Below are positions 5,199-36,399 of a stretch of DNA of 64,000 bases, piece after piece. The stretch is from Scytalidium lignicola (lineage: Eukaryota; Ascomycota; Leotiomycetes). Location: positions 148,157-212,156 of the forward strand of contig NCSJ02000034.1 in the NCBI GenBank assembly GCA_002812745.2. Direction: 5' to 3'. The notes beneath the pieces were generated by a model that was not told the origin of the DNA, did not search any database, and saw only the letters and a list, made by a program, of their open reading frames with translations. The stretch's first letter is position 1, and every line of letters begins with the position of its first letter. The translations under genes were made by a program, and so were the position numbers.

Positions 5199-6326
5199 TG
5201 CACAGAAAGCATGTTCTCCGTCCGACCACGTCCAGAGTGGTGGTGGTGATGTCGAGGGCGAGGAAGGACGATGGAAGAAGTCCAGGTGACGGACTTCCCC
5301 ATTTCCTGGTACTGTAATTTGGGGATATTCTACCAAGGGGCGTGCACAAAAAGTCCCCCTAGTGGCTGATAGGAAGAACCCTGCCGGACAAGGGATAAAG
5401 GCTTGGGAGGGGATTTTAGCCAGGGGGATTCTCCCTCTCCNAAAAAAAAAAAACCTACGCACGGATAAAGGTACCGAAGTCTCAGCGACTCTTGGCCCCT
5501 CACAGTGCGACAATAATTGATGATCTCCACGTCCTGTGGCGAATACAGGAAATAAGTTATGGTCCGTCCTAAAAGCAGTATCGCTTTCTATGGCTCAAAT
5601 TCCCGCATACTGTTTTACGATTCATTATTACAGAAGCAATCTAGTCAAAATACGCTGTCCCACGCCCTCTAGGAACCCTCTGCTCTATGCGGATTTAAAG
5701 CGCTCATAGTTGAATTGTTGTCTTCGATCTTCAGTGCTTGATTTCGGGTCTAGATTCCGAATCTACTGCGCACAAAATCCACCAATCGCCCTGTGCTTGG
5801 CCAGCTCATGGTACTGTAATACACAATTATATCCTTGCAACATCGCGACTTACCATTAATAAGAGAAGCCTGATTGTGAAGGAACCTATCTGGCCACCGT
5901 ACCGAGGCTGGACCAATTGTTGGACGATGCAACTCCTGTAGTATAGAAACATCTCGCTGTGCAAAACTAGAAGGTGTGGGTACATGTTATCTCTTGCATA
6001 GCGGAATATAGGTATCAGTTAGGCTGAAAAGCTGTGCCCTCCCTTTTCTCTTTACGTTACATTTCAGCTCACTTCGCAAGTCAAGCAGCACATAGAGAAC
6101 AGCTTTGATCTTTAAGAGGTTGGATAACAGAACTAGTTGCAGTAAATTGGTTCCACATGTAACTCCGCTTGCAGTCACTGGCTCCTGTCACAAAACGAAA
6201 CAAAATAGATTGACACCAAATGTAATGCACCTGATACCTGACTGCGCACTAGTGTACACATCGACATGATTCTATATTTCCTTTGTACAATCAACCGATT
6301 TCGGCCCCGCTTCGTACCGCGTCTAT
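5199..6326. other. Intergenic: ERG12 upstream / IDH1 downstream
   Basis: About 1.1 kb, with one N at 5441 followed by a run of A. Two TACTGTA heptamers lie at 5310-5316 and 5812-5818. I see no supportable gene. Confidence 0.5.
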
Positions 6327-29562: not shown

Positions 29563-31676
29563 TCACCACATAAATCTCTGTACATTCCCCTTCTCCTGCG
29601 GCCACTCAAACCCTCGATACAGGAACACATATCCCGTCCCCGCATTAATAACAAGGAACCATACGGTTTCGATCAAGAGCTGGTACTTTTGCATTATGCC
29701 CCGCAAAAATCCAACGCTCTTGTCCACGACGCCGAGGATTCCTTGATGATCTTGATCTTGGACGCGTGTAGTTGAGGAGCCCGGTGGAGAATACGGGACA
29801 TGCAGTCGCCAGATTACCCACGGAATGATGAAGTATCTTGGTTCCACGAGCGGCGCTGTGATGAGCGAGAGCGCTGTTGAGAGTAGCAGGATGAGCGCAA
29901 ATGATGTTTTGGGCAGCGAGGATGTGGTTTGATTACTGATCGTCGTTATCTTTGCAGCTTTGATCGCCGATGCATCTTGCTTTGAGCCTGCGATGGGCTT
30001 CTCGGAAGTTGATGTAAATAATGAATTTCCCTCGGATTTTACAGATGTATCCCCTCCGAGGCAGCTATATGTCAAGTATCCGCAGATAAGGTAGATCGGT
30101 GCCAGGGCATAGCGTATGTATTGATGCCGCAATATTGTGTAACGGAATATGTAAAAGACGTAGTGTCGGTTGTCTGCTAGAGTAAATGGGTGGATTATGG
30201 TATTGTATCTGATGATGCACAAGGTCGCCAATAAGGATATTGTGATACAGGCTGTGCATAAAATGAACTTGTAGGTGGGTGAAGATGTTGACTGAGATTC
30301 GTGACGGATATACAACATTGTTTGAGTCGTTCGAAGTATGCACTGTAAAGTCGAAAGAGCGTATGGTACGATTAAAGGAGAAGAGAAGAAGGCAACAAAC
30401 GGCCATATGTAGAGCATCTGAGGCAAATGAATAGTGGCGACGTGATTTGACTTATCCCCTATAAACTATTTAGATAGATGAAGGATGAGGAAAGTCGCTG
30501 TACATACCTAGCACTACGCCCCCGTTCCATATGATAAATGCTGCAAAGGAGATGAGGAGTGAGATATAAGGAACCAATCTCGTAAACACGAGTATTGGAT
30601 GATAGAGGGCGGCAATTAAGATGCTGATTCCACAGAGGGCAAAATCTACAAAAGTTAGAGGGATGAAATATTATTGAACATGATATCCTACCTTCTATAC
30701 CAGCATCGTTCAATGCTACATTATGGATTTTCCCATTTGAGTACTCAGTGAATTTCTCCCCAATGGTCGCTTTCCAAGAGCCTGTCCCCTCCACAGCCCT
30801 CACCGTTGTAGAAGATTCAGCGNTTTTGAACTGTCCTCGCAACTTCGAGTCCACCCAAAAACACAGCAACCCAAAAGATATTGGTCTGTCGCATGGTAAG
30901 TGCTAGTAAACCTAGAACAAACAATGCAAAGCTGCTCCCAATAGTATAACTACTTGGACCATCTCGCTGCAGAAATGATTTATACACTCTCAGCACAACA
31001 CATGTTGAGAGGATATCTGTATAGTAAAGTCCTGAGAAGAAAAACAGGGGCGGGAAAAGAGCTATGTTCGCTGCAGCATAGACATCTGATAATGAACGGT
31101 CTCGCCCTGAGGTCCGGGTTATGAGCATTCGACAGTCATTCGCATAGAGCATAGTTGCCATTAGGAATATTGTGTTGGTGAGACGCAGACCGGAGACTGA
31201 ACATGCTCCATTTCCCCAAATCTTTAAGAGGAGGGTCGAGACACCATAGCTACGTAGTAATTAGTTCGCCATTCCATAAGTCAAACAACTTTCACCCCCT
31301 TCTTTCTGTCTCACTAAGCAACTGAATCAGAAAACATACAGGCCGGGTGGAGTAGTCAGCTTTGGGTCCCATGTAAAATAATCTCCATTACAATAAGCTT
31401 GTGCTTGAGGTATATGAAATATCTCATCCTGTCCTCATTTTAGTGGCGGGAAAAGGCAATAGGATTTTGCGGAAAAGGAGAGGCACATACGAGATAGGGG
31501 ATGGGAACAATCTCGTTGACTCGGGTTCGCCAGAACGTAGCCAGAAGATATACTGCGACATAAAATAACAAACTGGCTGGTTTTTGAGATATCCTGATGA
31601 CTGAGGGTAAAGTGTCCAATAAGACAGCCACGCCGGTCACATAAGGGAGCCACGTGACGATGCCTGAGATTTCCAT
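29563..31676 (-). CDS. ALG10: Dolichyl-P-glucose alpha-1,2-glucosyltransferase ALG10 (DIE2), frame interrupted by an N
   Basis: ER membrane enzyme that adds the terminal glucose to the lipid-linked N-glycan precursor. Five exons: 31676-31491, 31428-31340, 31249-30692, 30645-30508 and 30458-29563; 621 residues when the N at 30823 is ignored. With the N, the frame stops just after ARTVQ; without it, reading continues [13 protein letters not shown] into the rest of the gene. Key blocks are [32 protein letters not shown] in the lumenal loop (the Asp-Glu near its start is conserved in this family), MRQTNIFWV, and [17 protein letters not shown]. Many hydrophobic segments are visible. The exon joins all restore family sequence. 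Confidence 0.91.
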
Positions 31677-32640
31677 GGCTAGAATATTTGGCTGTGAGTA
31701 TTAATCAAACAGATTCGTCTTCGAGAAGACCGGAAAGCTTATTTAGCTTTGACTTTTGTGGTGTGACATGGTGTAGATATGTCCGTTGCTAGAACACTGA
31801 TATTCATCATGAGCATACTCAAAGGTGTTCCTTTTGATAATTTCGGCTAGCTCTGCTCATTGGCCAGCGGGCTAATCACGGCTCAGATACTGTGTCATTC
31901 AGCGTTATGGTATGGACACGCGACAAAATAAACTACATTGAAGTCTGCTAATAAAACCATAGAATACGTAATATATATAGGGCATCACTACTATGAGTAG
32001 GATCTAAACACTACTAGAAGCTTTAGTACTCCCCAAAGACTTATTGCATGTTCTGCAGCCCTTTACAGGCTATGTGAGCGCCAGAAGACCTGTAGATGAG
32101 CCTAGAACACCTGGAAATTGCGTCCAAGGATCTTTTCATAAGTTCTGTAAATGCCTTGCACTAACAGAAATGCCAATTGAACATTGACCACAATTTAACT
32201 GTTATCCATTTTTTTGCTGTGCTGTGTCATTGCTGTCTGTAATCCTTAAGTGTGGCCGATGATCGGGAAGAGCTTTGACGCCGTCTTATCGGTCATTCAC
32301 TGTGAGGAATTTTGCGCTGGAAAATTTATTTATGGTTTAAGTTACCTTAATCCGAAAGCAGCACATACGTACCTCGCTAAAGTCTTTGCATCCAATCAGA
32401 GGCTGGTTTTCAGATTTCCACTGATCCTGATTGACCCAACTTGCCCCACCATGTGAAAATGCTCTTTTTCGCCTTCCCGCCCTGTCAAAACCTTTGACGC
32501 ATCTTTCACCTCCCCGCCACTTCAACAATTGGAATTGCTGCTCTCTCCCTGCTCTCTCCTTGCTCTATCATTCAAGAAACCATATCTAAATACTCTCCCC
32601 AAACCTTACTCTTACGGTGGAAGAGGATACAGTCGCGCGT
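31677..32640. promoter_or_regulatory. Divergent region ALG10 / CPA1 leader
   Basis: About 0.96 kb between the ALG10 start and the uORF of CPA1. A pyrimidine-rich run at about 32505-32580 sits where the CPA1 transcript would start. No Gcn4/CPC1-type TGASTCA site was found by eye. Confidence 0.45.
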
Positions 32641-32960
32641 ATGACTGGTCGGCAATCAGTCTTCACGTCTCAGGTAGGTACCTCCCGCTCCTCCATCTGC
32701 TTTCCTTTTGATGCTTTCGTCATCCCGTCATTCCATGCCAGTCTCTCAACATCGCGCCTGGACAATGGCATTGAACTTCCTTTGTCCTTTATTGTAGACA
32801 GACTTCGGCCTATATCAGGTCTTCTAAATGCTCTTGCTAACATGTTTCTGCAGGATTACATTTCAGGTATGCTTCAGCTATCCAGCCAGCGAAATTCTTT
32901 TCTCACCGCCCCAAACTAACCAATGCGGAAGATCATATCTGGAAAGCAAACGTAAATTAA
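32641..32960 (+). promoter_or_regulatory. Spliced uORF encoding the arginine attenuator peptide (AAP) of CPA1
   Basis: A 24-codon uORF in the CPA1 leader. Exons are 32641-32673, 32854-32866 (13 nt) and 32932-32960, separated by introns of 180 and 65 nt. The joined peptide reads MTGRQSVFTSQDYISD and then HIWKANVN before TAA. It matches the AAP of fungal arg-2/CPA1 in length and in the VFTSQDY-SDH-W core, including Asp12 and Trp19. In Neurospora and yeast this nascent peptide stalls the ribosome when arginine is high and so lowers translation of the downstream gene. The uORF stop is 54 nt before the CPA1 ATG. Splicing is inferred from frame and GT/AG signals. Confidence 0.95.
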
Positions 32961-33014
32961 TATCACTGCAATCGCAGACCACATACATTCTCTCGATCAA
33001 TTAAACGTTGCAAT

Positions 33015-34456
33015 ATGTTTACGCGATTTATAAAACCCGCGGCTTTCAAGCCGGCAGGCTTTACTATCAATACCCGCATTGCCCAGCAAGTCCGATCTCT
33101 AGCTACCGTCGAAGGCAGTGCTGGACGGACCCCACCTGCCCCTCGCAAGAGGGCAACTCCCGTCTCTCATGACCGAGCTACGCTTACCATTAGAGTATGA
33201 GGCATCATTGAATAGAGAGATAGAGTAATGTTGGCTAACACGACTGTTTATAGAACGGCCCAATCTTCCATGGCAAATCCTTTGGTGCAAAGTCCAATAT
33301 TTCTGGCGAGGCGGTTTTCACAACGTCCCTCGTTGGCTATCCTGAGTCTATGACCGATCCTTCTTATCGTGGACAGATCCTTGTCTTCACTCAACCATTG
33401 ATCGGAAACTACGGTGTGCCGTCGTCGGCTCGAGATGACCACGGTCTCTTGAAGTACTTTGAATCCCCGAACATCCAATGCTGCGGAGTAGTTGTTGCCG
33501 ATTATGCCGAGAAATACAGCCATTGGACTGCTGTGGAGAGTTTGAGCGATTGGTGTGCTCGTGAAGGCATCCCCGCTATCTCTGGCGTAGATACGCGAGC
33601 CATCGTTACGCATCTTCGAGAGCAGGGTTCATCCTTAGCCAGAATCACCATTGGAGAGGAGTATGATGCAGACCAAGATGAAGCGTTTGTTGATCCTGAA
33701 CAGATCAACTTGGTTAAGAAGGTCAGCACCAAAGCGCCATTCCACGTCAGTTCCCATAACGGAGATATGCACGTTGCTGTCATCGATTGCGGTGTGAAGG
33801 AAAATATTCTTAGGAGTTTGGTTGGCCGTGGAGCCAGTGTCACAGTCTTTCCATATGACTTCCCCATCCACAAGGTTGCTCATCACTTCGATGGCGTCTT
33901 TATCTCAAATGGCCCTGGTGATCCAACGCACTGTCAAGAGACTGTTTACCATCTAGCACGATTGATGGAGTCATCACAGGTTCCTATTATGGGTATCTGT
34001 CTTGGTCATCAATTGCTAGCCCTTGCTACTGGAGCTCGTACCATTAAGTTGAAATACGGCAACAGAGCCCACAACATCCCAGCCCTAGACTTGACCACTG
34101 GACAATGTCACATCACTAGTCAAAACCATGGATATGCTGTCGATACTACAACACTCCCTTCCGACTTCAAGGAGTATTTTGTCAACTTAAATGATGGTAG
34201 CAATGAGGGAATGATTCACAAGACTCGTCCCATATTCTCCACTCAATTCCATCCTGAAGCTAAGGGTGGCCCTATGGATTCGTCCTATCTCTTTGACATG
34301 TATATCGAAAATGTCCAACGCTACAAGACGAACCAGGCTGTCTATCCAGCTGCCAAGGATAACAGACCCAGCCCTCTTCTAGTGGATATCCTTTCCAAGG
34401 AGCGTGTTGGTGTTTATCCAGCTCAGCCAGTCGCTGCTGCTGCTGCGGCTGCATAA
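33015..34456 (+). CDS. CPA1: Carbamoyl-phosphate synthase, arginine-specific, small (glutaminase) chain
   Basis: Class I glutamine amidotransferase subunit that feeds ammonia to the large chain for arginine synthesis, in mitochondria in filamentous fungi. Exons are 33015-33194 and 33254-34456 with a 59-nt intron; 460 residues. A basic N-terminus ([17 protein letters not shown]) suits mitochondrial import. The small-chain domain begins at [15 protein letters not shown]. The amidotransferase triad is visible: Cys in [12 protein letters not shown], and His and Glu in [12 protein letters not shown]. The C-terminus ends in a run of Ala. It is preceded by the AAP uORF at 32641-32960, so it should be repressed by arginine at the level of translation. 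Confidence 0.96.
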
Positions 34457-34938: not shown

Positions 34939-36399
34939 ATGGGCAACAATTCACAAGACTTGGCAAAGGTGTTGACTATAGGCATCTCAGGATGCTCATC
35001 CAGTGGCAAAACGACCCTAACCCAACTACTCAATGAGATATTCTCTGATATCAGTTTCATCACTCCACGACCTTCTACGAACTATAACTCTAATGGCTCG
35101 GAAGAAAAGAAGAAGGAACTCAAATTATCTTCTTCCGGTAATAGCGAGCTTGATGACGAGGAAGCAGAGATTGGGGGATCCCTAAAATTTCAAGAAACGG
35201 AACTAAACAACGGCGAAAACAACATTACCATGAAAACCGTCGTAATCCATCAAGATTCATTCTTTGTTCCAAAACCAGAATGTCCGAACGTCACATTTGA
35301 ACTTCTGGGCGATGATCAAGCATACCTTTTGCTTTCTGAGACGGAAAGATCTCCAGAGATCTCCAGGAACAGTCCTAGCAGTATTCAAAGACTGGATGAG
35401 ATAGGCATCCACGAACAGAAGGCAAAATCCACACATAAGATACTAGAGATAGATATCGAATATGGAAAAACATACCAGTTAAACAACAACATCTCCAAGA
35501 GTTCCCGTGACAAACCGTGCAAGAAACAGCAGCAAACTTATTCAGAATCTCAACACCTAACTACATCTTTTATCACCAGTCCTAACACCGACTGTATCTC
35601 AGCCTTAGACATGATCTCTTTCCGGAAAACTATTAGCTTGGCATTAGAGACTGGTTCCGTTCCCCCAGCCTCAACTTTTCCATCTCCTAGACTCGGTTCT
35701 CCGACAATAGCATGGATCAATACTCTAAAGACGGATTATAAACTTCTCATCCAAAAACAACGAATGCGCGTTAGTGATTGGGTATCTAGTCTCTCTCCTA
35801 CAATCACTCTTCCTCAAACTTTATGCTTTATCGAAGGTTTCCTCCTCTATTTGCCATACATCCAAGTACCACCCGGGACCGAGATCAACGGCAATATAAA
35901 AGAGCAATATGCCGCTGCGAGAGAGGTTTTTGATATGATTGACCTAAAGTTGTTTCTACAGATCGAAAGAAATGAAGCGAAGGCACGACGGTTTCGTAGA
36001 CCAGAGTACTGCGATCCTTCAGTTGGAGGGACGCGGAAGGTTGGACAGTTATGGAAAACGGAAGGATATTTCGAGTCAGTCGTGTGGAAGGAACATCTTG
36101 ATAATCTCAACAGATTACGCAGTGAAGAGGGTCCCAGCTGGAGGTTTCTATGCTGGAGGAGCGAGAGGTGGGAAGGGTGCTCGGAAAGGAGAAAAGATGA
36201 GAATTTGGAGAGTTTCACCCCGCAACAGCAGCATGCTATGACGGTTGAGGAGGTAGTCGAATCTGCAGTTGGTCTGATTCTACATTACTTGGAGCGGAGT
36301 ACTATTGGTGTGACTAATGAGGGTTACGTTCAGCAAAATGGAGCTAGGAATAGGGAGGTTATTGGTAGGAGGGATATTGTGTGCCTTGGCAAGAATTGA
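34939..36399 (+). CDS. Nicotinamide riboside kinase-like P-loop kinase
   Basis: Intronless, 486 residues. Walker A GCSSSGKTT at 18-26, IHQDSFF (103-109) at the place where NRK and uridine kinases have DDFF, and a lid/substrate block RRFRRPEYCDPSVG followed by GYFESVVWKEHLDN, which resembles the R-x-x-R...GYF...VWP motif of NRK1. The likely reaction is phosphorylation of nicotinamide riboside to NMN in NAD salvage. It is almost twice the length of human NRK1 because of two low-complexity insertions, residues 45-95 and about 135-225, rich in Ser, Glu and Asn. Assignment to NRK over uridine kinase rests on the GYF-VW block. Confidence 0.8.
   Translation: MGNNSQDLAKVLTIGISGCSSSGKTTLTQLLNEIFSDISFITPRPSTNYNSNGSEEKKKELKLSSSGNSELDDEEAEIGGSLKFQETELNNGENNITMKTVVIHQDSFFVPKPECPNVTFELLGDDQAYLLLSETERSPEISRNSPSSIQRLDEIGIHEQKAKSTHKILEIDIEYGKTYQLNNNISKSSRDKPCKKQQQTYSESQHLTTSFITSPNTDCISALDMISFRKTISLALETGSVPPASTFPSPRLGSPTIAWINTLKTDYKLLIQKQRMRVSDWVSSLSPTITLPQTLCFIEGFLLYLPYIQVPPGTEINGNIKEQYAAAREVFDMIDLKLFLQIERNEAKARRFRRPEYCDPSVGGTRKVGQLWKTEGYFESVVWKEHLDNLNRLRSEEGPSWRFLCWRSERWEGCSERRKDENLESFTPQQQHAMTVEEVVESAVGLILHYLERSTIGVTNEGYVQQNGARNREVIGRRDIVCLGKN

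Follow-up and report, generated by a model that had tools for sequence, protein, structure and literature searches.

A predicted three-exon arginine attenuator peptide uORF in the CPA1 leader of Scytalidium lignicola

Our analysis of the arginine-type CPA1 gene of Scytalidium lignicola is best explained by an upstream open reading frame (uORF) that encodes the arginine attenuator peptide (AAP) of CPA1 (arg-2), is split by two spliceosomal introns and very probably stalls ribosomes at its stop codon in response to arginine. The gene lies on the plus strand of a window of 64,000 nucleotides, the whole stretch of DNA that was analysed (contig NCSJ02000034.1, positions 148,157 to 212,156). When three segments of this window are joined, the resulting 75 nt encode MTGRQSVFTSQDYISDHIWKANVN followed by TAA, giving a uORF of 24 codons. 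Exon 1 (32641-32673) contributes codons 1-11 (MTGRQSVFTSQ), exon 2 (32854-32866) is a microexon of 13 nt carrying codons 12-15 (DYIS; Asp12, Tyr13, Ile14 and Ser15) and the first base of codon 16, and exon 3 (32932-32960) supplies the remainder of codon 16 through codon 24 as well as the stop codon. The exons are separated by the predicted intron 1 (32674-32853; 180 nt, phase 0, GTAGGT...CTAAC...CAG) and the predicted intron 2 (32867-32931; 65 nt, phase 1, GTATGC...CTAAC...AAG), and the uORF stop is followed by a spacer of 54 nt (32961-33014) that extends to the CPA1 ATG. The VFTSQDY core, Asp12, the SDH motif and Trp19 are all present in the joined peptide. A preliminary description of this DNA had proposed just such a three-exon uORF of 24 codons, with these motifs and this distance to the CPA1 start, and its borders proved exact on re-translation. 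The window contains six single N (at 5441, 19549, 24214, 30823, 37512 and 47439); the uORF and CPA1 are free of them.

Judged by its sequence, the uORF product is a member of the AAP family. Against the Pfam profile PF08252 (Leader_CPA1, 'arg-2/CPA1 leader peptide'), which has a curated cut-off of 18.5 bits, the joined peptide scored 53.7 bits (E 1.3e-14), the match covering positions 1-22 of 23. Its sole match in the PDB up to E 10 was 2xl1, ARGININE ATTENUATOR PEPTIDE (E 2e-8), to which it is identical at 16 of 24 residues; an NCBIfam profile search with the joined peptide and an Rfam search of the window at gathering scores returned no match. The 2xl1 entry is the AAP of Neurospora crassa arg-2, and like the peptide found here it has 24 residues, an SVFTSQDY core, Asp12, SDH and Trp19. 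The two differ at the other 8 of 24 residues; the coding sequence found here is cut by two introns. To our knowledge, the uORF of Saccharomyces cerevisiae CPA1 has no introns, unlike the uORF described here. An alignment of the uORF peptide, 2xl1 and P0025, a CPA1 gene model from Pseudogymnoascus, contains 15 invariant columns, with Asp12, Tyr13 and Trp19 identical among all three. According to the accessible text of PMC3130931, these three residues are critical for stalling, as is residue 14, which is printed there as Lys14; this residue is Ile in the uORF peptide, P0025 and a second gene model, P0121, and Leu in 2xl1. The same text locates the N. crassa AAP upstream of the gene for the small subunit of the arginine-specific carbamoyl phosphate synthetase (CPSase), and the accessible part of PMC7049704 describes S. 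cerevisiae CPA1 as an orthologue whose AAP uORF is conserved and whose nonsense-mediated decay (NMD) depends on the uORF.

The window is not enriched in intron candidates relative to a random control, and a free choice of splice sites could in principle assemble an AAP-like product by chance. We set the uORF against a list of all splice paths that begin at an ATG on either strand of the window and include zero to two introns (GT-AG, 45-250 nt, CTNAY 6-45 nt from the end). The list comprised 145,499 paths, 2,045 of which encode exactly 24 codons plus a stop. Scored by BLOSUM62 against a Neurospora AAP reference whose last three residues were entered by hand, the uORF reached 87, compared with a mean of -17.7 (s.d. 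10.0) across the 2,045 24-codon ORFs, the uORF included. The runner-up scored 26 and shares its start and exon 1 with the uORF, while the best ORF from a different start scored 16. The CPA1 leader alone gave 118 paths and three ORFs of 24 codons. Against a chance origin stand this separation of 87 from 16, the E value obtained with PF08252, the placement of the uORF beside the right gene in the right position and orientation, and the presence of an AAP in two other CPA1 models, P0025 and P0121. A chance product is thus vanishingly improbable, and the PF08252 score and the splice-path control rule it out for practical purposes.

The adjacent gene comprises exon 1 (33015-33194, with its ATG at 33015), an intron of 59 nt (33195-33253) and exon 2, which runs to the stop (33254-34456); CPSase_sm_chain and GATase domains were found in the ORF at 33350-34453. 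Removal of the intron yields a protein of 460 aa, 97-100% of whose length is covered by the homologues at the top of the matches listed. The best named relatives listed are Halenospora varia (Helotiales, Leotiomycetes), a Mollisiaceae isolate, Chlorociboria aeruginascens and Phialocephala subalpina, at 92-91% identity, which makes a Helotiales-like Leotiomycete the most likely source; several near relatives bear the name 'arginine-specific small chain'. The genomic sequence thus places the uORF in the 5' leader region of an arginine-type CPA1. A search of the genome (a 46.9-Mb assembly of 664 contigs) for the CPSase small subunit gave four matches among the best candidates scored, two of which are the exons of the CPA1 gene in the window. 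The other two, at 53-54% identity, are on a different contig, one of them inside an open frame of 2,054 aa, and were taken for the pyrimidine-pathway enzyme, so that one arginine-type CPA1 was found in the genome among the best candidates scored. Upstream of CPA1, a gene of the DIE2/ALG10 family occupies 29563-31161 on the opposite, minus strand in at least two pieces (29566-30426 and 30820-31161). Downstream, a 486-codon ORF on the plus strand (34939-36399) had no Pfam match at E 0.001; by eye, it contains a P-loop-like GCSSSGKTT near its start.

Both uORF introns are of the GT-AG type and possess a CTAAC branch-like site, the A of which lies 13 nt (intron 1) and 12 nt (intron 2) from the 3' end. 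The CPA1 intron, which served as an internal control for intron signals, has a similar layout, with GTATGA, CTAAC at 15 nt and TAG. The AAG at the end of uORF intron 2 is a less common acceptor. Ten donor-acceptor pairs on the plus strand of the window satisfy a strict grammar for introns (a GTRNGY donor and CTAAC, with the first AG 6-16 nt further on), and two of them are exactly uORF introns 1 and 2; this total does not exceed that of random sequence (8.3, s.d. 3.8), and CPA1's own intron, with its GTATGA donor, escapes the grammar. Likewise, the window contains 18 CTAAC-type sites versus 17.2 in a first-order Markov control, a count that by itself lends no support. Since the strict-grammar total is no higher than random, the case is carried by the peptide, and the intron signals agree with it and add support. 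From the splice signals together with the encoded product, we infer that both introns are removed. Intron 1 is a multiple of three in length and contains no stop in the frame of the uORF, which is only mildly unusual, given that the same holds for 9.1% of composition shuffles.

The preliminary description had further held that the functional uORF exists only after two splicing events, and the profile scores bear this out for the whole peptide: the 53.7 bits of the joined form fall to 35.2 bits when intron 1 is retained and to 26.3 bits when intron 2 is retained. Retention of intron 2 would produce a uORF of 32 codons, retention of intron 1 one of 84 codons and retention of both one of 92 codons, while skipping of the microexon would give an 18-codon uORF, MTGRQSVFTSQIISGKQT, which lacks Asp12 and Tyr13. 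Because these two residues are carried by the 13-nt exon and the forms with one intron retained score lower with PF08252, correct splicing is needed for the whole peptide, and the product of a mis-spliced uORF would probably be a poorer arginine sensor or none. A protein search with the 84-aa isoform that retains intron 1 found none among three candidates. Such an arrangement could also serve as a switch, in which the AAP is real and regulated skipping of the 13-nt exon or intron retention yields CPA1 mRNA with a non-sensing uORF, adding a second layer of control. All four mis-spliced forms terminate before CPA1, as this reading would have it, and the accessible text of PMC11121469 offers a precedent in the glucose-dependent 20-nt microexon of Trichoderma virens Xlr2. 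As in the uORF, a very short exon of a filamentous fungus there encodes essential residues; unlike the 13-nt exon of the uORF, the Xlr2 microexon belongs to a transcription-factor gene and is conditionally included. However, the signals of the uORF introns look ordinary, and the form that retains intron 1 still holds the last 14 residues and the stop and might still stall ribosomes, leaving regulated splicing of this kind very unlikely.

Under the favoured explanation, an AAP uORF that acts once both introns have been spliced out, CPA1 is predicted to be under the same translational control by arginine as its relatives. As described in the accessible parts of the sources, arginine causes the AAP to stall the ribosome at the uORF stop (PMC3130931), this stalling keeps ribosomes off the main start (PMC3130931, PMC10501990, PMC7049704), and transcripts of the S. 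cerevisiae and N. crassa orthologues are subject to NMD (PMC7049704). In S. lignicola, removal of both introns from a transcript whose leader begins at 32461 would leave one upstream AUG in a weak context, from which a fraction of ribosomes would make the 24-residue AAP. When arginine is abundant, the nascent chain would stall the ribosome at the uORF stop and block scanning to CPA1 54 nt downstream, and the stalled mRNA may be exposed to NMD. At low arginine, ribosomes passing over the weak AUG would get to CPA1.

Several features of the leader bear on these steps. In the spliced leader from 32461, the only ATG is that of the uORF. Seven others, located between this start and CPA1, are all within the two introns, and two further ATGs upstream, at 32451 and 32459, would add uORFs if the leader is longer. 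The start of an AAP uORF is expected to stand in a context that permits leaky scanning. Position -3 is C at the uORF ATG and A at the CPA1 ATG, which fits what leaky scanning would want. In addition, the first predicted junction past the uORF stop falls within CPA1, at a distance of 234 nt; should exon junctions play a part in NMD in this fungus, it could flag the mRNA for decay. The AAP would be a relic without control if most CPA1 transcripts began downstream of 32641. We consider this highly improbable: the start codon, D12, Y13 and W19 are intact, as are the two splice borders that keep the frame, and a relic would soon lose them.

Finally, we examined how visible such a uORF is to genome surveys. 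The preliminary description had stated that the peptide is invisible to single-frame ORF scans and would be missed by automatic annotation. The first statement held, as did the second for ORF scans: a six-frame PF08252 search of the genome gave no match over the 18.5-bit cut-off and three weak matches of 17.1, 13.8 and 13.2 bits, and the unspliced 92-codon frame scored 11.1 bits. Among 14 control genomes searched with the same profile, one gave a match, which was below the cut-off. The 17.1-bit match is a second AAP-like site, on contig C32 (L006 1501-1527, minus strand), that reads ISDHLWRAL and aligns with profile positions 14-22. It resembles the C-terminal part of the Neurospora AAP, yet it is out of frame with a long hydrophobic open frame on the same strand, and it was rejected as chance.

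With respect to gene finders, the statement on annotation did not hold in full. Of 7,999 CPA1 homologues, 120 matches were listed, and among these a precomputed PF08252 domain was present in one, P0025 (Pseudogymnoascus sp. VKM F-4246, Leotiomycetes), which starts with MSARPSVFTSQDYISDHIWKA and continues directly into CPA1. A protein search with residues 1-40 of P0025 found two among five candidates, namely P0025 itself and P0121 (source 'merc'), a CPA1 gene model with MSGRPSVFTSQDYISDHIWKA at residues 6-26. Both exceed the PF08252 cut-off (48.3 bits for P0025 and 48.6 bits for P0121) and agree closely with the uORF peptide, at 18/21 and 19/21 residues, respectively. In these two models the AAP runs into CPA1 without a stop, whereas in S. 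lignicola it forms a separate uORF, and the joining of AAP and CPA1 is apparently a gene-model error. Annotation can therefore swallow the AAP instead of missing it. A search of DNA contigs of other genomes and of viral contigs with H. varia CPA1 (P0003) as query gave no confirmed locus (0/17 and 0/7 pattern matches).

Few eukaryotic arrest peptides with a metabolite-sensing function have been characterised, and the AAP is one of them; its family is known, and the uORF described here is a further member. The way this uORF is split, which places Asp12 and Tyr13 on an exon of 13 nt, is possibly unusual and may already be known. Hood et al. 2007, cited in PMC7049704 and reportedly the key paper on the AAP gene family, may well have described interrupted AAP uORFs, and we do not claim the split as new. 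A literature search covering titles and abstract openings found no intron-split AAP uORF among the matches listed; the main AAP papers were outside its reach, so this result is no evidence that the split is unpublished.

Growth-dependent inclusion of the microexon would tie splice choice to nutrient sensing, and if splicing did act as a switch, splicing and nascent-peptide sensing would form two layers on one leader. More generally, a uORF can be conserved and functional and yet become readable only through splicing, as in the CPA1 leader of S. lignicola. Single-frame surveys of genomic leaders would count too few of these peptides, and in gene models a leader peptide may end up fused to the main protein, as seen in P0025 and P0121.
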